Origin: Spirochaetota bacterium
Lineage (GTDB): Bacteria; Spirochaetota; Brachyspiria; Brachyspirales; JACRPF01
Reading direction: 5' to 3'
Length of the DNA stretch: 64,000 nt
Assembly (NCBI GenBank): GCA_016214035.1
Contig: JACRPF010000001.1
Location: forward strand, 62,001 to 126,000
Below the pieces are notes generated by a model. That model searched no databases, had not been told where the DNA came from, and was given only the letters and a program-made list of their open reading frames with translations. Positions 20,698-62,246 of the stretch are shown piece after piece (the stretch's first letter is position 1; every line of letters begins with the position of its first letter). A program made the position numbers and the translations under genes.

Positions 20698-21792
20698 CTA
20701 CTTCAATTCCACGTACGCGCCCTTGACCACCTGATACATGGAAAAACCGACACCGATGGCATCGCCTTGTTTGTCGAACGAGATCTTCCCGAGCGGCGTG
20801 TCTACGTACTCGCCTCTGAGCGCAGCACTGACCCCGTCATAGGATATCGTTTTCGCCTTGTCGATGGCATTGACGAGCGCCGTCATTGCGGCATAGGCGT
20901 TGAGATAGAACGCTCCGGCCTCGTCACCGTACGTCTTTTTGTGCTCGGCAAATGCCTGCACGGCCAATGGATTCTTCGTCGTGTCGCGCGGTCCGCTCGC
21001 GTACACACCCTCGGCGTACGTTCCCGCAACCTTGATGAAGGTATCGTACTTCACGCCGTCGTCGGAAATGAACGGTATTGTGACGCCGCGCTTACGCATC
21101 TGCGCGACGATCTTCGACGCCTCGGGATGATATCCGCCGAAGACGAGCGCATCGGCCTTCAAGTTCACGACCTTATTGATGATCGCCGTATAATCGACGG
21201 CGCCCGGCGTGACCCCTTCGAACAGCACCACATGGCCACGATCCTGCTCGGCAAAATAGCGTTTGACATATTCGGCGAACCCCTTGCCGTAATCGCCCTT
21301 ATCGTGCAGCACGGCGATGCGGAAACAGTTCTTAAGATTGCGCGTGAACGATGTTACCAGCATCGCCTGCGCGTTATCGGGCGCAATGGTGCGGAAAAAA
21401 TTCGGATACCGACCGCCGGTGAGATCCGGCGTTGTCGCCGACGGCGAGATGCAGATGATACCCGATGAACGGTAGATACCCACGGCGGATTTTGTCGCAC
21501 CGGAACAGATATGTCCGATGACGGCGATCACTTTTTCTCCGGCTATCTTCGAGGCAACATTCGCGGCGATCTCCGGTTTGCATGAGTCATCCTCGGTGAT
21601 CAGGCGTATCTTTCTGCCCTTGATGCCGCCCGCATCGTTGACCTTTTTTGCTATAATTTCGCACGCCTTGCGTGTGGGAATACCATACGACGCGAGGTCG
21701 CCCGAGAATGCGCCGACGACGCCGATTTTTATCTCATCCGCCGCGCATAGCGCCGACGCACAAATCACGAGACACAGAACGATCGCTTTCAT
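20698..21792 (-). CDS. livK: Branched-chain amino-acid-type ABC substrate-binding protein LivK
   Basis: Periplasmic type I binding protein of 364 aa. A signal peptide (MKAIVLCLVICASALCAAD) precedes IKIGVVGAFSGDLASYG, the standard start of the Leu/Ile/Val-binding fold. Other family signatures are VIGHICSGATKSAVGIY and YPNFFRTIAPDNAQA. Cys16 could be a relaxed spirochaetal lipobox Cys, but the preceding residues (SAL) are not canonical. First gene of livKHMGF; GGAGC lies just before the ATG. A TATAAT -10 element occurs on the minus strand at 21854-21859 but with no good -35, so the operon may need an activator. Ligand class (branched-chain amino acid, amide or urea) is not resolved. Confidence 0.9.
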   Translation of the reverse strand: MKAIVLCLVICASALCAADEIKIGVVGAFSGDLASYGIPTRKACEIIAKKVNDAGGIKGRKIRLITEDDSCKPEIAANVASKIAGEKVIAVIGHICSGATKSAVGIYRSSGIICISPSATTPDLTGGRYPNFFRTIAPDNAQAMLVTSFTRNLKNCFRIAVLHDKGDYGKGFAEYVKRYFAEQDRGHVVLFEGVTPGAVDYTAIINKVVNLKADALVFGGYHPEASKIVAQMRKRGVTIPFISDDGVKYDTFIKVAGTYAEGVYASGPRDTTKNPLAVQAFAEHKKTYGDEAGAFYLNAYAAMTALVNAIDKAKTISYDGVSAALRGEYVDTPLGKISFDKQGDAIGVGFSMYQVVKGAYVELK

Positions 21793-21958
21793 ACATGCTC
21801 CTTACGGATATTCCAGACGATGCAGTACGCCGCACCGTTGTTTATGCCGCATCATTATACCGTATGCACTTAAAAAAGGAAGATTCTGCACCATAGATTC
21901 GGAAACGGATCGGCCATACGATTATTACAGCGCAGCAAATCGCGACCGGATGGCGCTT

Positions 21959-22690
21959 TTATTTTGTCGCTTTGAACAGCGCCTCAATCGTTTCCGGTTT
22001 GAGCACCGCGTTATAGATACGCACGTCTTCGAGACACCCCTTGAAATAAGCGGCGGTCTGCGTCGGAAACGTACCGAACGTCAGCGTACCGCCTTTCGAT
22101 TCAATAGTGCCGTCCTTATAATTCTGTTTTTCAAACACCGGTTTCCCGTTGATGTACAGCGCCAGATATCCTTTCTGTTTGTCGTAGACGCCGACAACAT
22201 GATAGTAGGCATCGATATCATATCCGGCATCCGAAACGCAAATCTGTTCCGCCACTTCGCTGCCGACGCTGAAATAGAACTTCTTCTCCTGATACCAGAA
22301 TCCCCAGCCGCTTGAATGCGTCGTGTTCAGAAAACGCCCCATGATATTGCCGTCGGTGAGCGACTGCGGCTTAACCCAGAACGATATTGATATTGTTCGG
22401 GCAATACGGAGTGAAATTCCACTGCCGAAGCTCAGGGAATTACCGGAACCGTCGAAATAATATGCACCGTCCGCATTTCCCAAATGATCGACGGCATAGC
22501 TTGCTGCCGTACCGGAACGGATATCGCCGTGATTATTATTGCCGCTGTCGTCATAGTAATCGCCGGCAAGCGTATAATATGCGGCAAGACCTTCAATCTG
22601 GTTCTTTACGCTGAACTCATCCACCGCGCTGACGGTCAGCGGGCTTATCATAATCGCTGCGATCAGAACAACACGCGATAGCATAGTCAT
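21959..22690 (-). CDS. Secreted LamG/concanavalin A-like domain protein, 243 aa
   Basis: A signal peptide (MTMLSRVVLIAAIMISPLTVSA) is followed by one LamG-type jellyroll (about residues 30-240): GLAAYYTLAGDYYDDSGNNNHG, YYFDGSGNSLSFG, ISISFWVKPQSL, YHVVGVYDKQKGYLALYINGKPV, FKGCLEDVRIYNAVL. These are the standard strand motifs of the LamGL fold and commonly bind glycans. No catalytic domain is attached, so it is a stand-alone binding protein or an adhesin. AAGGAT precedes the ATG by 7 nt. Single gene with its own likely promoter. Confidence 0.8.
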   Translation of the reverse strand: MTMLSRVVLIAAIMISPLTVSAVDEFSVKNQIEGLAAYYTLAGDYYDDSGNNNHGDIRSGTAASYAVDHLGNADGAYYFDGSGNSLSFGSGISLRIARTISISFWVKPQSLTDGNIMGRFLNTTHSSGWGFWYQEKKFYFSVGSEVAEQICVSDAGYDIDAYYHVVGVYDKQKGYLALYINGKPVFEKQNYKDGTIESKGGTLTFGTFPTQTAAYFKGCLEDVRIYNAVLKPETIEALFKATK

Positions 22691-22725
22691 ACGGGATATC
22701 CTTTAAGTTGCAGTTGGCTGACAGT

Positions 22726-22752
22726 TTAATACAATTATGCCGGACTTGTCAA
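22726..22752 (-). promoter_or_regulatory. Possible promoter of the LamG protein gene
   Basis: On the minus strand TTGACA (22747-22752) is followed 15 nt later by TATTAA (22726-22731), or 16 nt later by ATTAAA. The -35 is perfect; the -10 is weak. The predicted 5' UTR is about 30 nt. Confidence 0.4.
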
Positions 22753-22791
22753 GAAATAAGCTATTCCGGCTTTCCGCTGACCGTACTGAAG

Positions 22792-25257
22792 CTATTTTCC
22801 GAGGATCTCGACATCCTCGGTGCTCTTCGCCTCGAACGTGAACACGCCGTTCACCGCGTGCACCTGGATATGGTCTTTATCTTTGATGGTGTTCCGCAGA
22901 ATTTCGTTGGATACATTATCCTCGATTTCCCGCTGTATGGTGCGGCGAAGCGAACGGGCGCCGTATTTCTTGTCATACCCTTTGGTGACGAGCAGCTCCT
23001 TCGCTTCTTCGGTAAGCGTGAGCGTGATCTGCTTCTGCGACAGCACGGAGCGCACCTCGTCAAGCATGATATCGACGATTGCCTTCACATGCTCGCGTTC
23101 CAGCGTGTGGAAAACAACCACGTCGTCGACACGGTTGATGAATTCGGGATTGAACACCTGCTTCACTTCATCCATGGCGATGCTTTTAATCTCCTCGAAC
23201 GAACGACCTATGTCCTCGTTCGTGAAACCGAAACTCGCGCCCTTTGCCATGTCGCGCGCACCCACGTTACTCGTCATGATGATGATGGTATTGCTGAAGT
23301 CAACACGGTGTCCGAGATTGTCGGTGAGCTGGCCTTCCTCGAGCACCTGCAGCAGGATGTTGAAAATATCCGGATGCGCTTTTTCAATCTCGTCGAAAAG
23401 CACAACCGCATACGGACGACGCCGTATCTTTTCGGTAAGGTCGCCGCCCTCATCGTAACCCACGTATCCCGGAGGCGCCCCGATGAGCCGTGACACAGCG
23501 TGCTTTTCCATAAACTCGCTCATATCGATGCGAATGAGCGCCTCACTGTCGCCGAACATGAAATCGGCGAGTGTTTTCGCGAGCGCCGTTTTTCCCACGC
23601 CGGTGGGACCCAGAAAGATAAACGAGCCCATCGGACGGCGATGATTTTTAAGCCCCGCGCGGGTGCGCCGTATCGCCCGTGAAATGGCGCGTATCGCCTC
23701 GTCCTGACCGATGATGGCCTTGTGCAGCTCCTCTTCCATGCGTACGAGCTTCTCGCTCTCGCTGCCGGAAATCTTGCTCAGCGGAATGCCGGTAATCTCC
23801 GAGACAACACGAAGGATATCCTCGACATCCACCACCGACGCCACCTTCTCCCTGCTGTCGCGCCAGTCGCGTTCGGCGTCGGTAAACTTTTCCTTCATCT
23901 TTTTGATTTCATCGCGGACCTGTGCCGCTTCCTCATATTTCTGTTTCGATACGAGCTTCTCTTTCTTCTTGGTAAGCTCATCTATATTTTTGGTGAATTC
24001 CTTGAAATCCTTGGGGCGTGTGGTATTGATAAGCCGCGCGCGGGCGCCCGCCTCGTCGATGAGGTCGATGGCCTTGTCCGGCAGATGCCGTTCCACGATA
24101 TAGCGTTTGGAAAGGAGCGCCGCCTGCCGGAGTGCTTCATCGGTATATTTCACCTTATGGTGATCTTCATAGCGCGAACGGATGCCTTCCAGTATGGCTA
24201 TGGTATCCTCGACGCTCGGTTCGGCAATGATGATCGGCTGAAACCTGCGGACGAGCGCGGTATCTTTTTCGATGTATTTCTTGTATTCGTTGAGCGTTGT
24301 CGCGCCCACGCACTGGAGTTCCCCGCGTGCCAGCGCAGGCTTCAGCATATTCGCGGCGTCCATAGCGCCTTCCGCACCGCCGGCACCGATGATTGTATGA
24401 AGCTCATCGATGAAGACGATGACATTGTTCGAGCGGCGAATTTCGGCCATCACGTTCTTGAGGCGCTCCTCGAACTCGCCGCGGTATTTTGTCCCGGCAA
24501 CGATTGACGCGAGATCGAGCACGAGCACACGGCGGTTGAGCAGTATGTCCGGCACCTCGTTCTCGATGATGCGCTGCGCGAGTCCCTCGACGATGGCGCT
24601 TTTGCCCACGCCTGGTTCGCCGATGAGGACGGGGTTGTTCTTCTTTCTGCGCGATAGTATCTGCACGACGCGCGTCACTTCCTTTTCCCTGCCCACGACA
24701 TTATCGAGCGCGTGTTCGCGTGCGAGCTTGGTGAGATCGCGGCTGAATTGATCGAGCGCCGGCGTGCGGTTCTTCTTCGCCTCGTCGGCCTCTTCATTGA
24801 CGGGCACTTTGCCGAGCCCGAGCATTTTCATTATCTCCTGCCGGAGCGTGTCGATCTCGAAACCGAGCGCGGTCATCACATTGAACGCGGTGTTCTGCCC
24901 CTCGCGCATGATGCCGAGGAGGAGATGCTCCGTGCCGATGCAGTTATGATTGAGCGCCCGCGCCTCGTCCGCCGCGCGGCTGATGAGACGCTGCACCCGC
25001 TGGGACGTCGGAACATTGCCGAGTATTTTCGTGTTGGTGGCATGGGTGGCGATGTTGTTCTCAATCTCGGATCTGAGTTTTTCCGGATCGAGCTTGAGCT
25101 TCATGAGCACGCGCGCGGCAAGCCCCTCACCCTCGCGGATGAGACCGAGCAGCACGTGCTCGGGGGTCACCATATCGTGGTTCAGGCGTTTCGCCTCTTC
25201 CTGCGCGTGGAATTCAAGCACTTTTTTTGCGCGCATGGTGAGATGAAATTGGAACAT
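22792..25257 (-). CDS. clpC: ATP-dependent Clp protease ATP-binding subunit ClpC
   Basis: AAA+ unfoldase of 821 aa that feeds substrates to ClpP. Domain order: double Clp-N repeat (1-145), AAA-1 with Walker A GEPGVGKS (213-220) and [11 protein letters not shown], a UVR-type middle domain (about 420-455, [17 protein letters not shown]), AAA-2 with Walker A GPTGVGKT (550-557), and the C-terminal D2-small domain. The UVR middle segment distinguishes ClpC from ClpB/ClpA. No clpP, mcsA or mcsB gene adjoins. Start ATG 25257 ([12 protein letters not shown]) follows GAGGAAA; upstream in-frame codons are in the promoter. Confidence 0.95.
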
Positions 25258-53083: not shown

Positions 53084-54076
53084 TTACAAAAACCATGCTC
53101 GCAGTTGTTCCTCATCATTGATAAAACGAACTTCGGGATTGGCAACAGACCAGTCCACTTCGCCGAACCGTATCGTGCCGGATGTCGCAAGAAGCGATTT
53201 CGTACCGCGTTCCTTGACGAACTCGACGGTATATGCGCCGGACCAGAAGTCTCTGCCGGACGAATAATCGAATGAATCCATCCGGTCGCTTTTGTATATC
53301 CAGTTTTTTATTGGACTGTCATGCCGCACTTCATGCGTCAGGAGATACCATCGATCATTTCTGCGGAACAGATTGCTCGACTCCAATTGTCCCTGAGGAT
53401 GATTGCCTTCAAGCCGCGCCTCATATCCATCCGTACGTCCGGTGAGAATAGGTCCGTGGCATTTCCAATGATTGCTATCATCGGTACTTGTCAACGCAAT
53501 GCAGGATGCTCCCGCGGAAGTGTTGGCCGTATATGTCATGAACAGTCTGCCGTTCTCTATAAAGAGATGCGGATCACGACAGCTCGCGATGCCGTCAGTA
53601 CGCCAAAACGCCCAGCTGCAATCTTTTGCGGGACTCAGCGGATTGTCCGGTGATCGTTCCCAGCGGAATAGATCGTCGCTGAACGCAAAACCGATATCCT
53701 GCGAGCAGAGATGATTCAATCCCGTATACGCCATCAGAAAACGATTTTTCCAGCGTATGATGTACGGTGCCCAGACATGACCGTTCTCCCATGAATCCGG
53801 ACGCACCCACATGACAGGTTCATGCACGTCCCAGTTGAGAAGGTCCGCTATCGATGCGTGGCAGAAGAATACCTCATGACCGGGATAGAACGGCGTGCCT
53901 TCCTGCAGCCGCCGCTCGATGGCAAAAAAATGATATCGCCCCCCGTGTTCGATGACGCAGAAATCACCGAGCATCCCGCCGACGGGCCGGAAACCATCGC
54001 TAAGGTTGATGCGCCGATGACCGTAGAAATCCCGCCGCATACCGAACAACTTTGTTTCAAACTCGATAGAGTTCAT
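53084..54076 (-). CDS. GH32/GH43-like five-bladed beta-propeller glycosidase, 330 aa
   Basis: Cytoplasmic-type protein (no signal peptide) with the clan GH-F/GH-J propeller layout: GDFCVIEHGGRYHFF (Asp38 as nucleophile-like), VWAPYIIR (WAP motif, near 102-104), SCRDPHLFI (RDP at 167-169) and QLESSNLF (Glu232 as acid/base-like). These three acidic residues are the catalytic set of this superfamily. Start ATG 54076 follows GGAGCCC; it lies 23 bp after the stop of the large LamG/GH42-like gene and is operonic with it. It likely acts on fructan, arabinan or xylan-type oligosaccharides inside the cell; the substrate is not decided by the sequence. Confidence 0.7.
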   Translation of the reverse strand: MNSIEFETKLFGMRRDFYGHRRINLSDGFRPVGGMLGDFCVIEHGGRYHFFAIERRLQEGTPFYPGHEVFFCHASIADLLNWDVHEPVMWVRPDSWENGHVWAPYIIRWKNRFLMAYTGLNHLCSQDIGFAFSDDLFRWERSPDNPLSPAKDCSWAFWRTDGIASCRDPHLFIENGRLFMTYTANTSAGASCIALTSTDDSNHWKCHGPILTGRTDGYEARLEGNHPQGQLESSNLFRRNDRWYLLTHEVRHDSPIKNWIYKSDRMDSFDYSSGRDFWSGAYTVEFVKERGTKSLLATSGTIRFGEVDWSVANPEVRFINDEEQLRAWFL

Positions 54077-54099
54077 TGCGCGGGCTCCATACACGGCAA

Positions 54100-57000
54100 T
54101 CATTTTTTATCAATTTTATATAAATACGTCTCTCCCGCCTTCAGATCAAACTCGACCGCCGTTCCGCGCACCGGAGTTCCGGGTCTGCCGATCGGCGTGA
54201 AGACGGCATCGTGCTTCCAGCGCACCGGACGCACGCCCGATTCCAACGGATGCAGCATGAGAAAATTCTGCCCGACCTCGACAACCGTACCGGGCTTGGT
54301 AACACGCCATGCGCCGGCGTACCGGGCGAGCACCGCTATCATCTCCCGCGAAAGCAGCCGCGTACCGATGAACACCGATTTCCAAGTGCCGTTATCCTTC
54401 ACCGCCATGCCGGGTTTTTCAGCGTCCGCATATGCGGCAAGCATTGTCGCCGCGGGGTCTGCGGGAACAATCGTATACTGCTGTTCTGTCTTGATGCCTT
54501 CACGCTTCGCGTTGAATTCCTTCGCTTGACCGATCTCGCCGGGGCCGCCGCTTATCAGCTGAAAACCCGCCGAGCCGCTCAGTACTTTTACCGCAAGGAC
54601 GTTCACTCCTTTTTTCAACCGTAGTGTAAACCGGTGATCATTGACCGAATACTCGCCTTTTCCGTTTCCTTTTTCCATGGTATTGTACACCGGCACTCCG
54701 TTCACATACCAGGACATCCACCAGTCGGCGCCGGAGCCCATCTCGATATCACAATCGCTGTCGCTCATCATCTCCGTCATCACCCACGCGCCGACGCCTT
54801 CCCTGGCGCTCACACCGAGCGTCTTTGCAAGATCGATGATGCCGTTCACGGTGATCACGTTCGCATCGATGCGCCGTCCCGCGATGGACATCGCTGCCGG
54901 AATGGAACGCAATTCGCTGACCGGATCAGCATCCGTTTTTGCGATAGGTCCATAGACGCGCCATGTACGCGGCCACGCAACAGCATCGGTTGTTTTTTTC
55001 GAAGCTTTCCATTCGACCAGCGGGTGTGATGTATCATAGACCCCGGTGAATACCGGTACCGTTTCAGCCGGCACCAGTTTCATCCCCGCAGCTTTTTCAG
55101 TTGCGGCGGACGACATCCGTGACTGCGCATATCCCGTGTCGTGCAGAAAAACAATAACTGCGCCGTCTTTTTTTATTTTTTCAATCGCCTCGATGTTCCG
55201 CGGATTCAGATCGAGCGCATTCTGAAATATATACAGCTTCGCCGGCGGTATCTTTCCGTCACGAAGGTCCGCCATATGCCACTGACCGTACGGTGTGCCG
55301 CTGGCAAGGAATTCATTCTGCTGCAGCTGAATCCAAATCCAGGGAAGCGTCGCAAGACCGCTCCGCGCGAAATCGATGCTCTTTTCATCATAGATGAGCG
55401 CCACATCCTGCATGGGCTGAGACACCGTCGAGGGCTTCACCCATCGCGCCGTATCGACAAGGAATTTCATTTCATCGATTATCTCCGGGGCGTCAAAGCT
55501 GTATGCCGGTCCGAACACATGATTCCAGAGTACGCCCGCGCCGGTGGCCCACATGTGCGAAATCTCACGCCGCCACATGGCCGTAAGCATACCGATGTTC
55601 TCGGCATGTCCCATGGACAACGCACCGGCGCTTATGCCGGTTGCGACAGCGCCCGTTTTCGGCGGCGGCTGCAGATACGTGGGATGGTCGAGGTCAACGC
55701 AGAATATCTTCCCGTTCGCCGCCATCGAGGCAAGATAGGCGTTGATACCGCCAAGATTCGGCGGTATGCGCTGATTGTATGACGCCTGATGCAGAAAAAA
55801 ATCAAGATTCGCGCTGTGATTCGCCTCCTCAACATGTGAGGAATCACGGCGCGCCTGACTCTCCCCGACGCATGCGCCTACGATGACCGGCCGAGTTGCG
55901 CCGGACTTTATCGTCTTAGCCCAATAATCTATCAGAGACTGACGGGCATCGGTCTGGAATCGTTTCCAATCCATCGCCTGCCGTTCCTTGACCGGATCGT
56001 GGAACGTCGCCCCGCCGACAAGATCGGACGGCGGCGGCGGTTCGACGTCATCAAACGACCGAATGCTTTTCCCCCACGCCCCGGACACTGCTGCCGGCGT
56101 GCCGTACTTGGCGGCGATATATTTTTTCCATGCCTTGCGTCCCGCGGGACTGTAATCCCCCCACAGCTCCGTTTTACTCGCCAGAAATCCGTTGGGCATA
56201 TTCCAGTGATAGAGCTGCGCGTCCTGTCCGCCGCCGATGAGATATCCGACGACCGCGTTTCCCGGAACGAGTTTCTCGATATCGGCGATGAGATTGGTGA
56301 GCATAGCGGCAATCTCGTCGCGGAACACCTCGGAGTGAAACGACCAGAACGTGCGGTGCATCTGACCCGGCCCCGGAACGGTGATGCCGTTCGTAAATCC
56401 CATGGTATGCGATTCGCCGTACGCGTACTCGCCGCGCTCATTCTGAAGACATTCACCGGGATGTTCCGACGGCCACTCCGCATACGGATCTATCCACAGC
56501 CACAGTATTATCTTCGCGTTCGAATTTCCCTGCAAAGGACGCCAGAGCATTTTTTCAAGATCGGCTGCATCGTACCTGTCCTTTCCGGTCCAATAGGGTT
56601 TCATATAGACATTGGCGTGCCAACCATGCCCGGACTTTTCCGACGCGAACCCGAGATTGAGCTGCACATTGATGATGTCCATGCCCGCCTTGAAATACGG
56701 CTGTATGTTTATCTGTTTATACGGCCCGAGCATCCATACATCGCCGCCGTACATAATGGAAGGTTTACCATTGATCTCAAGCACCGGGGCTTCTCCCGCA
56801 CGCTGCGTGACCCGCGCCGTTTGCGGTCCCCGTGTCTTTATCGCGCTGATGAGCTCATCACTCACCGGAGCAACAGCTTCCGGCACGCGCGCTATTTTTC
56901 CCGCCACATTCGTACCGGCGGTAGTCGCCGCTGCAACCGCTGACGACCACGGCACTCCCGCGATTATCTCACTCGCGGCGAGCGCGCGCGGCCACACGCG

Positions 57001-58206
57001 GATGTCGTCGATATCTCCGTTAAACCAGAATGCGTACTTCGGGCTCGCGGGGTTCGCCACACCGACAGCGGCTTCATAGGGATATTGAAACACCGTGCCG
57101 GTAAATTTCGTCTCACCGGCGGCCTCGCCGTCGACATAGAGACTGACCTTACCGGCAGCCGCGTCAAACACACCGGTAATGCGATGCCACGCTCCGGGAT
57201 CATACGTCTTTTTCGAGACAGCGGTAAACCCCGTCTTATCCGTATTGTAGATGCCGAAATAGAAATGCCGGTCGCTGTCGTATCCCAGATCGTTATGAAA
57301 ACCTTTGCGTCCGAATATCGTAGCGCGTATTACGGGAACGGCTGCCGGTTTTGCCCATGCCTCGAACGTGACACTCGATTCGAGCTTCGGCAGCGGAACG
57401 ATACGATAGCCTGTTGCGCCGTCAAAACGAAGACCTTTGCCGGTCTTCCCGGCAACGCCCGCAACATTGCCTATGGCCTCGGCACCGGGTCCGTCGTTAA
57501 AATCCCATGCGGCAACCGGAGGAGCGCTCACCGGCTGACCCGTCGTGTTCGCATTATCGGTTTCAGGTTTTGCTTCCGCGCCGCCGATCTCGCTCTCTGA
57601 AAGCACCGAGTTCCACACGCGTATATCGTCGATATCACCGTTGAACCAGAACGCATACTTCGGGCTGTTCGGATTCGCCGCACCGATGGCGGCTTCCTTA
57701 TTATACGCAAACACGGTACCGGTAAATTTTGTTTCTCCGGCAAGTTCTCCATCCACATACAACCGGACCTTTCCGGCAGCCGCATCGAACACGCCGGTAA
57801 TGCGATGCCACTCGCCGGGAGCATACGTCTTCTTCGAGACAGCGGTGAACCCCGCTTTCTCCGTATTGTAAATACCGAAGTAGAAATGCTGATCACTGTC
57901 ATAACCCAGGTCGTTATGAAAACCGCGGCGGCCGAATATCGTCGCGCGCAATGCGGGAACGGCTGCCGGTTTTGCCCACGCCTCGAAGGTGAAGCCCGCA
58001 TTAAACTCCGGCACCGGAACGGTGAGCGAACCCGTTGCGCCGTCGAACCGAAGACCCTTGCCGGTCTTTCCCGCAACGCTTTCTACGGAGCCGGTAACCC
58101 CGGCGCCGGGGCCGTCATTGAAATCCCATGTGACAGCCGGGGGCACTGCAAACAGCACGGGAATCATTATAGCAATAATCAGGGTGACATGAACATTGAT
58201 GCGCAT
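54100..58206 (-). CDS. Giant secreted LamG-LamG-GH42-like TIM-barrel protein, 1368 aa
   Basis: Signal peptide (MRINVHVTLIIAIMIPVLFAVP), then two nearly identical LamG domains (about 25-205 and 232-412) produced by a 621-bp intragenic duplication. A beta-galactosidase-like TIM barrel (about 465-760) contains GDVWMLGPYKQINIQPYFKAGMD, ILWLWIDPYAEWP and VVGYLIGGGQDAQLYHWN. In related proteins the last motif has Glu, but here position 664 is Gln, so the acid/base residue may be lost. A Rossmann-like/trimerisation domain follows (about 930-1050), then a C-terminal jellyroll (about 1090-1240). GGAGGTTT precedes the ATG. Exported; carbohydrate target unknown. First gene of an operon with the GH32/43-like gene. 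Confidence 0.8.
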   Translation of the reverse strand: MRINVHVTLIIAIMIPVLFAVPPAVTWDFNDGPGAGVTGSVESVAGKTGKGLRFDGATGSLTVPVPEFNAGFTFEAWAKPAAVPALRATIFGRRGFHNDLGYDSDQHFYFGIYNTEKAGFTAVSKKTYAPGEWHRITGVFDAAAGKVRLYVDGELAGETKFTGTVFAYNKEAAIGAANPNSPKYAFWFNGDIDDIRVWNSVLSESEIGGAEAKPETDNANTTGQPVSAPPVAAWDFNDGPGAEAIGNVAGVAGKTGKGLRFDGATGYRIVPLPKLESSVTFEAWAKPAAVPVIRATIFGRKGFHNDLGYDSDRHFYFGIYNTDKTGFTAVSKKTYDPGAWHRITGVFDAAAGKVSLYVDGEAAGETKFTGTVFQYPYEAAVGVANPASPKYAFWFNGDIDDIRVWPRALAASEIIAGVPWSSAVAAATTAGTNVAGKIARVPEAVAPVSDELISAIKTRGPQTARVTQRAGEAPVLEINGKPSIMYGGDVWMLGPYKQINIQPYFKAGMDIINVQLNLGFASEKSGHGWHANVYMKPYWTGKDRYDAADLEKMLWRPLQGNSNAKIILWLWIDPYAEWPSEHPGECLQNERGEYAYGESHTMGFTNGITVPGPGQMHRTFWSFHSEVFRDEIAAMLTNLIADIEKLVPGNAVVGYLIGGGQDAQLYHWNMPNGFLASKTELWGDYSPAGRKAWKKYIAAKYGTPAAVSGAWGKSIRSFDDVEPPPPSDLVGGATFHDPVKERQAMDWKRFQTDARQSLIDYWAKTIKSGATRPVIVGACVGESQARRDSSHVEEANHSANLDFFLHQASYNQRIPPNLGGINAYLASMAANGKIFCVDLDHPTYLQPPPKTGAVATGISAGALSMGHAENIGMLTAMWRREISHMWATGAGVLWNHVFGPAYSFDAPEIIDEMKFLVDTARWVKPSTVSQPMQDVALIYDEKSIDFARSGLATLPWIWIQLQQNEFLASGTPYGQWHMADLRDGKIPPAKLYIFQNALDLNPRNIEAIEKIKKDGAVIVFLHDTGYAQSRMSSAATEKAAGMKLVPAETVPVFTGVYDTSHPLVEWKASKKTTDAVAWPRTWRVYGPIAKTDADPVSELRSIPAAMSIAGRRIDANVITVNGIIDLAKTLGVSAREGVGAWVMTEMMSDSDCDIEMGSGADWWMSWYVNGVPVYNTMEKGNGKGEYSVNDHRFTLRLKKGVNVLAVKVLSGSAGFQLISGGPGEIGQAKEFNAKREGIKTEQQYTIVPADPAATMLAAYADAEKPGMAVKDNGTWKSVFIGTRLLSREMIAVLARYAGAWRVTKPGTVVEVGQNFLMLHPLESGVRPVRWKHDAVFTPIGRPGTPVRGTAVEFDLKAGETYLYKIDKK
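57000..57520 (-). repeat. LamG copy 2 of an intragenic duplication
   Basis: High nucleotide identity to 57621-58141, offset 621 bp (207 codons). Encodes the second LamG domain. Confidence 0.8.
57621..58141 (-). repeat. LamG copy 1 of an intragenic duplication
   Basis: High nucleotide identity to 57000-57520, same reading frame. Confidence 0.8.
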
Positions 58207-58232: not shown

Positions 58233-58261
58233 AATATACGCGACATCTGCGGTTTCGTAAA
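58233..58261 (-). promoter_or_regulatory. Promoter of the LamG/GH42-like operon
   Basis: Minus-strand TTTACG (58256-58261), 17-nt spacer, TATATT (58233-58238). The -35 is weak, as expected of an activator-dependent promoter. Confidence 0.5.
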
Positions 58262-58278
58262 TGGATAAAACGGAAATG

Positions 58279-58306
58279 ATTTGCATTATCAGCTGAAATG
58301 CCGCAT
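58279..58306 (-). promoter_or_regulatory. Proposed AraC operator upstream of the LamG/GH42-like gene
   Basis: On the minus strand ATGCGG (58301-58306), 15 nt, TGCAAAT (58279-58285), then 17 nt to the -35. The same arrangement occurs at 61292-61320. Confidence 0.55.
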
Positions 58307-58329
58307 CAGCGACAGCACTTCAGCACTGT

Positions 58330-61224
58330 TCACCGCTCCGCATACACCCGCACTTCCCCCAATCCGAAATTACCGCCGTTACCGTCGGTCTTGCTTACAC
58401 TGATAAAACGGAACGGTTTTCCGTCCGGCAGCAGAACCTTCCAGAGCTCGCCGAACGGCGCGGCGTCCCGTCCGATGCTGCCGAGTATGACCGCATCTTT
58501 CATGTCGGGGTCGTTACTTCCGCGCACCGCGATATTGCGCCGTATCGCCTCATTATCCCACGACACCCTGAAGCATATCTGAATTTCCGAGACCGGCATT
58601 TCGGCACCGAGATCGATAGTTGCCGAGCCCAGTTTGTCTCCGCCGCCCGGCACCCACTCGGAATTGAATTTCCCGTCGGTGACATTGTCCGCCTTGAAGG
58701 ACGTATTATACATACTCGATACGGTCACCGGTTTTTTGAGTGCGATGTTCTCACGCACCGGCGGCGTCACTCCGGTCACGAGCGGCGGCACGATGATGAA
58801 CGGCACGCCGTCGCGCGGCGATGAGACCGGCCCGGGCTCCGTGCTGCCGTCTGCCGGCGCGTTCTCACGGGTGAACAAGATCCGGTCGAAGAACCATCCG
58901 GTGATGCGTCCCGTTATCTTCAGGTCATACACCCCGGCTTCAGGTACGCTCACGTCGAGCGGTTTTCCCGATGCGGCTGTTATCCAGGCGAATTCCTTTC
59001 TGCATGTCACCGGGCCGATGTCACGTCCGGCAAAGGAGACCAGTGCGTGCGCCTCCTTGTCGGAATCACCTTTGCCGCGAAGACAGATGCGGTACGTACC
59101 CGGCGTGATCACTTTTATCCGGTAGCTGAGCGTCGGCAATTCGGTGAACGCCGTGCCGCGTTCATACACGGGTTTATTCGCCATGAGCACATGCTTTGAT
59201 GCAAACCCGTCGAACCATCCGTGCACGCCCACAAAACTGAACGCACAGCGCTCGAGTCCCGTATACTCCGCATAATCGCGCGCGTCGATGATGACCGAAC
59301 CGTTCTCCTCGAGAAACGGCGTCTGATACACCGAACGGTCGACTGCCGGCGTGCCGGGTTCGAACATAAGCGCGGCGGGATGTTTCAGTCCGGATGTCCG
59401 TATCACCGGCTGCGGTTCGGCGGGAAGTGGCGGCAGTGCGTCAAGCAGATGCCGGTATTCCGGTTCAAGCCCTGACGCTGCAATGACGGCACGCGCATCT
59501 TCGGGCCACACCCGGTCGGGGCATATCACCACGTTCGATATGACGACATTCTGCGGCTTGTAGTTCACCGCATTGCCGGTTGTCGTATACGTATTTTCAA
59601 TCAGGATGTCGCTGTTGCCGTTCAAATTGAAAACGGCATGGTCGCCGCGGCAGAGTTCGATCACATTGCCGATGTCGTGATAGCCGGCGCTGCCTTCATC
59701 ATGATACAATGCCGCGGTGTTGAAAGACGTGAAGGCATTCCCCACGTAGTTCGAACGGTATCCGGAACCGATGCTGCGGCTGAGCGAATAAATGGCCGCG
59801 CCGTCAACGCATTTCCGGTTGAAGTCGAATATGCGGTTCGCTTCGACGATAGTCCTTTGTGACAGCGTATTCTTCGAGCTCCATCCCCAGCCCACGGAAA
59901 CGGCCGTGTAATCCGCACCACGTATGTCATTGTGCGCTATCGTCGTGTCTTCGCTGTAGAGCACCGAAATGGCCGCCGAACCGTGATACTCTTTTCCTGT
60001 CTCGCGGAGCACATTATTCGCTATGACGACGCGTTTTGCCGCAGACCCCGCGTCCTTCTTTGTCGTCCCGATGTTCACCGCCGCCGCCGCGATATCGCAG
60101 AACACATTCCCGCGAATGATGATGCCGGATACATTGCTGCTGAAGTTGACCGCCGATTTCCCGGAATGGATGAACGTGCAGTTCTCGATGACGATATTAC
60201 TCACGCCGCTGCCGGATACCATTGCCGGAAGGATATAGGACTCAGACCCGCCTGCACCCACCATCACGGTGGTCTGCGTGGGTGCGCATCCCTCCATGTC
60301 CGGCTGCGTCCAGGTGTCATACTGAAACGTGATGCCGTCAAAACGGATATTGCATACCGGGCCGTCGCTGCCGCCTTCAAACCGTATGAACGTTTCGGCT
60401 GACGGGACGATGCAGACGGCGGTGTTCAGCGGCACATCACGCGGCGGCTTGCAGTAGAGATAGTTCTCACGACGGTCAAAATACCAGCTGCCGGGAGCGT
60501 CGATGAACTCCGGTGCATTATCGAGAAACATATATCCTTTCAGGTTCATCTCGAAATTGAATTTATACAGATAGTAATACAGAAATGGTTTTCGGATTTT
60601 CAGATATGACCACTCACCCGCCGCGGAGATGCCGTCAACGGGGATCATATAGGTCCGCCAGTTGACGTTCTGACGCACCAGCAAGTCCTCCGGATGCCCG
60701 ACGGCGCGGATATCGGCGCTGCGGACCACGAAGGCGTCCCTGTCTTCGCTCATCCCGAAAAGCTGCAGCGGTCCTGAATGCGCACGCCGCATCCGCACAC
60801 CGTTGATATAGAACTGGCGCGTGTTTTCTATCAGCGGCACATGCGCCCGGTATATGCCGTCCTTCCACGGCTTCCACCCGGTCACCTGAATGCCGCCGTC
60901 GAATACCGGCCGCTCGCCGGGATATGCGGCATACGCAACCGTACGCACCGGACTGCCGTCCCCGGGGCCGAACACGACGGTTTTTTCACAACGGTATGTT
61001 CCGCCGCGCAGATAGACGATGATATCACCGGTGCCGGTTTCAGACCTGAGCATCGTGCGGACTTCGTTCCGCGCGCGTTCGAGTGTCTTAAACGGCAGCG
61101 TTCTGCCGTCTGCGACATCTGAACCTTCCGGCGAGATGATGACGGCATTTTTTGCCGCCGCAGCGGCGTCAGCCATATTCACCATACATACTGCGGCGAT
61201 AAACATAGAAACATGAAAACGCAT
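58330..61224 (-). CDS. Secreted right-handed beta-helix protein with C-terminal discoidin-like domain, 964 aa
   Basis: Signal peptide (RFHVSMFIAAVCMVNMADAAAA). A parallel beta-helix (about 25-600) opens like the DUF1565/PbH1 family (ISPEGSDVADGRTLPFKTLERARNEVR, VYLRGGTYRCEKTVVFG) and has coil repeats (SNIVIENCTFIHSGKSAVNF, SGIIIRGNVFCDIAAAAV). Next come beta-sandwich domains (about 660-830) and an F5/8-type C domain (about 840-964: NIALKKPVTVSS, TDGKFNSEWVPGG, IDLGAEMPVSEIQI) that binds galactosides or similar glycans. Start ATG 61224 follows GGAGG. Probable extracellular polysaccharide lyase/epimerase or binding protein. Its promoter carries the proposed AraC operator. Confidence 0.8.
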   Translation of the reverse strand: MRFHVSMFIAAVCMVNMADAAAAAKNAVIISPEGSDVADGRTLPFKTLERARNEVRTMLRSETGTGDIIVYLRGGTYRCEKTVVFGPGDGSPVRTVAYAAYPGERPVFDGGIQVTGWKPWKDGIYRAHVPLIENTRQFYINGVRMRRAHSGPLQLFGMSEDRDAFVVRSADIRAVGHPEDLLVRQNVNWRTYMIPVDGISAAGEWSYLKIRKPFLYYYLYKFNFEMNLKGYMFLDNAPEFIDAPGSWYFDRRENYLYCKPPRDVPLNTAVCIVPSAETFIRFEGGSDGPVCNIRFDGITFQYDTWTQPDMEGCAPTQTTVMVGAGGSESYILPAMVSGSGVSNIVIENCTFIHSGKSAVNFSSNVSGIIIRGNVFCDIAAAAVNIGTTKKDAGSAAKRVVIANNVLRETGKEYHGSAAISVLYSEDTTIAHNDIRGADYTAVSVGWGWSSKNTLSQRTIVEANRIFDFNRKCVDGAAIYSLSRSIGSGYRSNYVGNAFTSFNTAALYHDEGSAGYHDIGNVIELCRGDHAVFNLNGNSDILIENTYTTTGNAVNYKPQNVVISNVVICPDRVWPEDARAVIAASGLEPEYRHLLDALPPLPAEPQPVIRTSGLKHPAALMFEPGTPAVDRSVYQTPFLEENGSVIIDARDYAEYTGLERCAFSFVGVHGWFDGFASKHVLMANKPVYERGTAFTELPTLSYRIKVITPGTYRICLRGKGDSDKEAHALVSFAGRDIGPVTCRKEFAWITAASGKPLDVSVPEAGVYDLKITGRITGWFFDRILFTRENAPADGSTEPGPVSSPRDGVPFIIVPPLVTGVTPPVRENIALKKPVTVSSMYNTSFKADNVTDGKFNSEWVPGGGDKLGSATIDLGAEMPVSEIQICFRVSWDNEAIRRNIAVRGSNDPDMKDAVILGSIGRDAAPFGELWKVLLPDGKPFRFISVSKTDGNGGNFGLGEVRVYAER

Positions 61225-61245
61225 AGATCCTCCGTGTTCGTCATC

Positions 61246-61274
61246 AGTATAGAGCATCATGTGCCGGCGGTCAA
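61246..61274 (-). promoter_or_regulatory. Promoter of the beta-helix/discoidin gene
   Basis: Minus-strand TTGACC (61269-61274), 17-nt spacer, TATACT (61246-61251). Confidence 0.6.
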
Positions 61275-61291
61275 TGTATAATCCGGCCGAT

Positions 61292-61320
61292 ATTTGCACT
61301 TTTTGGAATGCACACCGCAT
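61292..61320 (-). promoter_or_regulatory. Proposed AraC operator upstream of the beta-helix/discoidin gene
   Basis: On the minus strand ATGCGG (61315-61320), 16 nt, TGCAAAT (61292-61298), then 17 nt to the -35. The ATGCGG end touches the -35 of the divergent araC promoter (61320-61325), so binding could also autoregulate that gene. Confidence 0.55.
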
Positions 61321-61347
61321 TGACAGGCACCGCCCGCATTATATGAT
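61320..61347 (+). promoter_or_regulatory. Promoter of the AraC gene at 61357
   Basis: TTGACA (61320-61325), 16-nt spacer, TATGAT (61342-61347). Transcription is predicted near 61354, about 3 nt before the ATG. Confidence 0.6.
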
Positions 61348-61356
61348 GAACGTATC

Positions 61357-62196
61357 ATGCGAAAGAAAAAACTGAACGGCGGACATGCGGACACCTTCAG
61401 CATACACGTGCGCAGCGCCGGCCGCGCGATACTCGACTCCGGATATAACCATCCGCTGTTCGTCTCAGCCGACCATGATCTTCATTACACCACCAAAGGA
61501 CGGGGAACGATATTCATCAACGGCACCGGATATCCGGTAACCGCGGGCGATATCGTCATCGTACGCCCGGGGGAATCGTTCCGGGTCACGGCGGATGACG
61601 GCCTGCTCGAGCGCTTCTACATACATTTTGATAGTACGTCATCGTCCGGACCGGAACCGCTTCTTGCGCGGCGATTCATGGTTGCCGACCTCAACGAAAC
61701 ACATATGCTGTGCACGCGCATCGTCAAAGAAAAACTCGCCGGCGATATCCATGCACGGGCCATGTGCGGCGCATTACTCACTGAACTGCTCGTCCCGCTG
61801 CTGCGCAATTCCCGAAAGAGCACCGACGGCGGCATCAGCCCGCAGGTACGGAAAAATCTCGAGCGGCTGCAGCAGGTGCGTGAACATCTGAAGCAGCACT
61901 GCACCGCACAGGTGAGCCGCCGCGAACTTGAAGACATCGCGCAGCTCAGCATCAATCACCTTGAACGGCTGTTCAAGGCGTTCAGCGGCTACACACCGCA
62001 TCAGTATCAGCTGAAATGCCGCATCGACCGCGCCCGGGAATTGTTCATCGCCGGCGGGAGGACCATAACGGAAATTGCGGCGATGACCGGCTACAGCGGT
62101 CTGCACAAGTTCAGTGATTCATTCAGGAAATGGACCGGCATGCGTCCGTCGGAATACATCAAACGCGTGAATCCCGAGATAATCGACCGGAACTAG
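61357..62196 (+). CDS. AraC-family regulator with N-terminal cupin, 279 aa
   Basis: N-terminal cupin (about 15-115: ADHDLHYTTKGRGTIFINGT, VTAGDIVIVRPGESFRVT, LLERFYIHFD) senses a sugar in related proteins. The C-terminal two-HTH domain is at about 170-275: VSRRELEDIAQLSINHLERLFKAFSGYTPHQY and TITEIAAMTGYSGLHKFSDSFRKWTGMRPSEYI. No Shine-Dalgarno precedes the ATG, and the promoter above places transcription at the start codon, so the message is probably leaderless or nearly so. Divergent from the beta-helix gene and upstream of a Gfo/Idh gene; it is the likely regulator of the surrounding carbohydrate genes. Confidence 0.9.
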   Translation: MRKKKLNGGHADTFSIHVRSAGRAILDSGYNHPLFVSADHDLHYTTKGRGTIFINGTGYPVTAGDIVIVRPGESFRVTADDGLLERFYIHFDSTSSSGPEPLLARRFMVADLNETHMLCTRIVKEKLAGDIHARAMCGALLTELLVPLLRNSRKSTDGGISPQVRKNLERLQQVREHLKQHCTAQVSRRELEDIAQLSINHLERLFKAFSGYTPHQYQLKCRIDRARELFIAGGRTITEIAAMTGYSGLHKFSDSFRKWTGMRPSEYIKRVNPEIIDRN

Positions 62197-62210: not shown

Positions 62211-62246
62211 GTGATTTCGGGTAAATGAATAGTGATTACGGGTAAA
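62211..62246 (+). repeat. Two 15-bp direct repeats 21 bp apart upstream of the Gfo/Idh gene
   Basis: GTGATTTCGGGTAAA (62211-62225) and GTGATTACGGGTAAA (62232-62246) differ at one position. A 21-bp period (two helical turns) is typical for AraC-type binding sites; the second copy abuts the likely -35 region of the Gfo/Idh promoter (candidate -10 near 62262-62271). Confidence 0.6.

Follow-up and report, generated by a model that had tools for sequence, protein, structure and literature searches.

A predicted AraC-type tandem operator at two neighbouring secreted polysaccharide-active genes of a Spirochaetota bacterium, with copies elsewhere in its family

Genes and promoters at the locus

The window (the whole stretch of DNA analysed, 64,000 nucleotides) carries two adjacent genes for secreted, polysaccharide-active proteins on the minus strand and a gene for an AraC-family regulator on the plus strand. 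The genes and their promoters are:

53084 to 54103, minus strand: GH32/GH43-like gene, in overlap with the 3' end of the GH42 gene (open reading frame list and Pfam)
54100 to 58206, minus strand: gene for a secreted protein of 1368 aa that has a GH42-like domain and two LamG (Laminin_G_3) domains (Pfam)
58233 to 58261, minus strand: promoter of the GH42/LamG gene, TTTACG, 17 nt, TATATT (sequence)
58330 to 61224, minus strand: secreted beta-helix/F5_F8 type C (discoidin) gene, 964 aa, with ATG 61224 behind CGGAGG
61246 to 61274, minus strand: promoter of the beta-helix gene, TTGACC, 17 nt, TATACT (sequence)
61320 to 61347, plus strand: araC promoter, TTGACA, 16 nt, TATGAT, with the ATG at 61357 (sequence)
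61357 to 62196, plus strand: gene for an AraC-family regulator, divergent from the beta-helix gene, the candidate binder (Pfam)

The beta-helix gene starts at ATG 61224 and not at 61320, the start of the longer open reading frame, and the Pfam match of its product to F5/8 type C is weak. The GH32/GH43-like gene is probably in the same operon as the GH42 gene. In the 54100-58206 protein, the two LamG-type domains are about 78% identical to each other, and the pair reads as a recent internal duplication. The product of 61357-62196 has the layout of the AraC family, with an AraC_binding N-terminal domain (PF02311, E 2e-8) and a C-terminal domain with two HTHs (HTH_18, PF12833, E 7.5e-22). Nine bases separate the araC -10 from the ATG, and a ribosome-binding site is not visible, so the araC mRNA is probably leaderless or nearly so.

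Upstream of the GH42/LamG gene, the minus strand reads ATGCGG, 15 nt and TGCAAAT (58306-58279), then 17 nt, TTTACG (58261-58256), 17 nt and TATATT (58238-58233), while upstream of the beta-helix gene it reads ATGCGG, 16 nt and TGCAAAT (61320-61292), then 17 nt, TTGACC (61274-61269), 17 nt and TATACT (61251-61246). The boxes and spacings given for both secreted genes in a first-pass annotation of this DNA are therefore matched letter for letter, and TGCAAAT occupies the identical position in the two promoters, 17 nt upstream of the -35.

Within the window the ATGCGG/TGCAAAT pair was found twice against 0.02 expected, and none of 100 shuffles gave two matches. The genome scan proposed with that annotation, for the exact pattern with N14-17 in all 5.21 Mb (22 contigs), returned four matches, namely the pair at both secreted genes and two others that look like chance, one in the coding region of an iron-sulfur flavoprotein and one at the end of an unrelated open reading frame. 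Among 366 upstream regions, 0.4-0.6% of promoter pairs had some 6-mer and 7-mer in common at matching spacing and position when words and spacing could be chosen freely, and the words in common were mostly -35 and -10 words. Because of this rate, the two boxes alone, at neighbouring genes, are modest evidence and no more than suggestive.

Register and half-sites of the operator

The half-sites proposed in the first-pass annotation, ATGCGG and TGCAAAT, differ in sequence and so cannot make up the direct repeat expected of AraC half-sites, and nothing strong was found at lag 20-22 in both promoters in that register. The actual direct repeat lies in another register. Both promoters belong to a wider class, described below, in which T[ACG]CA abuts the -35 and a second such word lies 20-21 bp upstream, with the form TGCA-N16-TCCA followed directly by TTTACG at the GH42 gene and TGCA-N16-TACA followed directly by TTGACC at the beta-helix gene; TGCAAAT therefore comprises the last bases of the distal half-site and the first bases of the spacer. 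Within the 17-nt spacer of the earlier description lies the proximal half-site, which abuts the -35 with its TVCA at positions -4 to -1 ahead of the hexamer.

The operator can be written CC-N6-TGCA-N8-CC-N6-TRCA|TTKAC, in which a half-site of roughly CCAAAWANTGCA is repeated directly at a distance of 20 bp. In AraC/XylS-type operators, a half-site is expected to have two boxes separated by about one helical turn, each contacted by one HTH motif. Here CC and TGCA/TRCA recur 8 bp apart from start to start, but the first box has two bases only, and is GC in the distal half-site of the GH42 gene. The half-sites have the direct orientation and the distance of about two helical turns (20-21 bp) found in tandem class-II operators of the AraC/XylS type. 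The four half-sites are:

58262 to 58273, minus strand: GH42/LamG operator, proximal half-site CCGTTTTATCCA, abutting the -35 (match to TGCAAAT-N13-TVCATTKAC and promoter alignment)
58282 to 58293, minus strand: GH42/LamG operator, degenerate distal half-site GCTGATAATGCA (exact to TGCAAAT-N13-TVCATTKAC)
61275 to 61286, minus strand: beta-helix operator, proximal half-site CCGGATTATACA, abutting the -35 (exact pattern match and promoter alignment)
61295 to 61306, minus strand: beta-helix operator, distal half-site CCAAAAAGTGCA, whose TGCA begins TGCAAAT (exact pattern match)

The beta-helix copy is exact to the full operator pattern, and the GH42/LamG copy has two mismatches. The period of 20 differs slightly from the usual 21. 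The earlier view that the two promoters have an AraC-type site in common is thus borne out by geometry and recurrence, with the binder a prediction from sequence.

Copies of the operator elsewhere

A promoter in held-out sequence (C22:53464) closely resembles the beta-helix site and led to the search pattern TGCAAAT-N13-TVCATTKAC, with which two sites that had not been used to build it were found, one in this genome at C11:6808 and one at C57:21390 of the sister genus G001. All five sites (beta-helix, GH42, C11, C22 and G001 C57) have CC in common at a position outside the search pattern, and a second CC 20 bp upstream is common to four of the five, giving the operator formula CC-N6-TGCA-N8-CC-N6-TRCATTKAC. 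In 392 genomes of the phylum, the exact operator was matched four times, three times in this genome and once in the sister genus, all within one family, and the pattern read backwards as a control gave no match in the same genomes. At every copy, the -10 follows at 17 nt.

In this genome, the exact operator precedes the beta-helix gene, a secreted GDSL acylhydrolase gene on C11 (site C11:6800-6836) and a gene for a secreted LamG/acetyl-xylan esterase protein on C22 (site C22:53377-53413). The small regulon claimed at first holds as a small set of secreted polysaccharide-active genes, but it reaches beyond the locus, with two more exact sites on other contigs. In the sister genus, the operator heads an operon of two genes on G001 C57, the first at 21494-23461 and the next beginning near 23471, both with secreted products. 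Among the beta-helix homologues of G001, this second gene gives the best match (E 4.5e-45, with about 30% identity). Since G001 has eight beta-helix homologues, orthology of the two genes is likely but not certain.

TGCAAAT was missing upstream of the GH42 homologues examined in the sister genus, and none of those homologues directly adjoins an orthologous AraC gene. In three of them a similar stretch, TTTCC...CATTG, is retained at the -35, which is suggestive only. Also in G001, two promoters less than 3 kb apart (C64:25067 and C64:27850), one of them divergent from an AraC gene, have TGCAARCGAA...TRCATTTAC in common. This arrangement of two nearby promoters with one shared paired site and an AraC gene is like that in the window, but its inner half-site sequence is without CC and the sites therefore presumably belong to another regulator of the same kind.

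A wider promoter class in the genome

Direct repeats of 17 nt with a period of exactly 21 bp were enriched upstream of genes (10/253, and 7/249 in a second set) relative to about 0.6 at other periods in the same upstream samples, an excess as expected for a genome rich in AraC proteins. When 597 promoters were aligned on the -35, TCCA abutted it in 15, against 1.7 expected. TCCA, TGCA or TACA abutted the -35 in 35 promoters, 16 of which had a second such word 20 bp (nine) or 21 bp (seven) upstream, whereas each other spacing gave about 0.4. Leaving out the GH42 and beta-helix promoters, 14 of 33 still had the upstream word at one of these two spacings (binomial p 8e-14). The class words were picked after the first sample had been viewed, the safeguards being 700 kb of held-out sequence and the spacing control: in the held-out sequence, TCCA abutted the -35 in 7 of 231 promoters, and a second word at 20 bp was found in 3 of 9 TVCA promoters versus 4 of 222 others. 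A count free of any promoter model gave the same spacing peak, with 14 at 20 bp, 8 at 21 and 6 at 22 (control 0, 2 and 1).

Class genes have AraC neighbours more often (42% vs 14%, p 0.003) and more often encode proteins with signal-like starts (84% vs 40%, p 1e-4), and their products include GH29, GH5, sulfatase, CBM4_9 and beta-helix proteins. When the recognition helices of the AraC proteins near class promoters were compared, no obvious residues in common were found. We put forward only tentatively that a very large set of AraC proteins in this bacterial family (at least 150 HTH domains per genome) works through one shared plan, T[ACG]CA at the -35 with a second 20/21 bp upstream, the inner bases (here CCAAAWAN) distinguishing one paralogue from another. 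If so, many polysaccharide regulons would be readable from sequence alone. The 20/21-bp spacing rule offers a direct route to predicting further regulons and to testing the pairing of AraC proteins with their sites.

Comparison with known systems

At the araBAD I1-I2 site of Escherichia coli, the promoter-proximal box is TCCA-like, TAGC...TATCCATA, and about 4 bp of the -35 are covered by the proximal half-site. The present operator resembles it in that its half-sites are directly oriented, lie about two helical turns from each other and place the proximal copy at the -35; class members in this genome have TATCCA or GTCCA as the last bases before the -35. It differs in that the proximal half-site abuts the -35 with no overlap, and its targets are secreted polysaccharide-active proteins and not sugar catabolism.

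The Pm repeats recognised by XylS have a period of 21, against 20 in the operator here. At Pm, XylS binds two 15-bp direct repeats, TGCA-N6-GGTA, with box A 5' and box B 3' (PMC5481539). Pm of the Pseudomonas putida TOL system is alike in its two direct repeats upstream of the promoter, in each of which 6 bp separate a TGCA box from another box (PMC5481539). Here, however, CC-N6-TGCA is read towards the promoter (reverse complement TGCA-N6-GG), so that the half-site faces the opposite way. A XylS site was rejected as an identity for the operator, since it requires TGCA-N6-GGNTA repeats towards the promoter and the orientation here is reversed; the operator may nevertheless work like one. We class it as a new operator of an already known kind, the AraC-type tandem site.

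Polymer-degrading uncultured bacteria have genomes with hundreds of AraC regulators that lack known sites. In the present case, the operator is resolved almost to single bases and recurs in a sister genus ahead of a homologous gene.

Candidate regulator and mechanism

The reading we favour, with a probability of about 0.6, is that both promoters carry tandem class-II activator sites of the AraC type, that the AraC protein encoded at 61357-62196 is their likeliest regulator, and that the regulon is dispersed. A dimer of the regulator, bound to the two direct half-sites, would contact sigma-70 RNA polymerase at the -35 and activate rather than repress, much as in the class-II activation of araBAD by AraC and of Pm by XylS. 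The beta-helix gene would be driven via the full site, and the GH42/LamG gene, probably with the GH43-like gene behind it, via the degenerate site. Because the same operator precedes the C11 and C22 genes, it is predicted to control the GDSL acylhydrolase and the LamG/acetyl-xylan esterase as well, forming a dispersed regulon of secreted polysaccharide-active proteins. The enzymes joined by the operator come from three contigs (GH42-like, beta-helix, acetyl-xylan esterase and acylhydrolase) and may act on one acetylated polysaccharide, and the inducer of the 61357-62196 protein would presumably be a sugar released from the target polymer.

The first-pass annotation had also placed a copy of the site over the araC -35. 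Its box at 61315-61320 (minus strand), an ATGCGG outside the conserved operator, does share one base with TTGACA at 61320, but that copy is the same beta-helix site read from the other side. Between the end of the beta-helix operator (61306) and the start of the araC -35 (61320) there are 13 bp, and araC has no separate site. From its position, binding at the beta-helix operator could possibly also affect araC (autoregulation).

The 61357-62196 protein may not be the binder, because the genome has at least 150 AraC-type HTH (HTH_18) domains; among the best 150 HTH_18 matches, none is within 57 kb of the C11 site. In the alternative that follows, the operator would be a genuine AraC-type site bound by another AraC protein, for example that of C22:49448-50224, whose gene and the C22 site are about 3 kb apart, and the sites are indeed spread over three contigs. 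The 61357 gene would then control something else, such as the Gfo/Idh/MocA gene, in front of which, directly behind araC, there is a different and clean 21-bp direct repeat. On the other side, the 61357 AraC gene alone adjoins any of the genome's four sites (GH42 included), two of which lie in its locus. We consider another binder a real but unlikely alternative and regard the 61357-62196 protein as the likeliest regulator. No orthologue of this protein was found in 60 relatives at E<=1e-20 and no close relative in GTDB contigs; its best match in the sister genus (30%, E 2e-19) is no clear orthologue, yet the operator persists there.

The repeat behind araC, GATTTCGGGTAAA / GATTACGGGTAAA (62213-62246, period 21), is probably the site of another AraC protein, or possibly of the 61357-62196 protein. 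Its core CGGGTAAA-N13-CGGGTAAA occurs in exact form nowhere else in the genome, and since the CGGGTAAA repeat (62218-62246) is also absent from both secreted genes, it was set aside as the operator of the 61357-62196 protein.

The ATGCGG box and a probable araC relic

At the GH42 gene, ATGCGG (58301-58306) lies inside a short stretch resembling the coding DNA of araC:

58284 to 58336, plus strand: probable araC relic (similarity to araC coding DNA)

Positions 58284-58307 are identical to araC coding positions 62002-62025 at 23 of 24 nt, and the similarity continues in frame to 58336, with 18 of 27 nt identical past a 3-nt gap. This match was the best of 20,828 comparisons of araC with intergenic DNA (score 43; at most 34 in the reversed control) and beat 3000 shuffles (25 vs 19 at most).

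In the model of the first-pass annotation, ATGCGG and TGCAAAT would be the half-sites of a two-gene regulon with a further copy at the araC -35. Both boxes do occur at both genes with nearly equal spacing, but ATGCGG is missing at the C11, C22 and G001 C57 operator copies, the GH42 copy of the box lies within the probable relic, and the repeat is in the other register described above, making this model very improbable. Still less probable is a chance resemblance of two sigma-70 promoters aided by shared hexamers: the word-pair rate of 0.4-0.6% leaves some room for it, but the exact operator is confined to four copies in one family, one of them upstream of a homologous gene, and the 20/21-bp spacing signal is sharp. 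Least probable of all is the copying of one promoter from the other with no need of a shared regulator, since, although the genes are adjacent, their protein domains differ, the DNA between the conserved positions differs, no extended upstream homology is seen beyond the operator, and unrelated genes elsewhere have the same conserved positions.

An araC relic is the simplest reading of 58284-58336, with a short conversion from the neighbouring gene as a possible alternative. The relic supplies part of the GH42 distal half-site, and its origin may lie behind the degenerate state of that half-site. Similar short matches to the 3' ends of araC genes were seen in other intergenic regions, for example C1:117965-118178 and C1:128735-129006.
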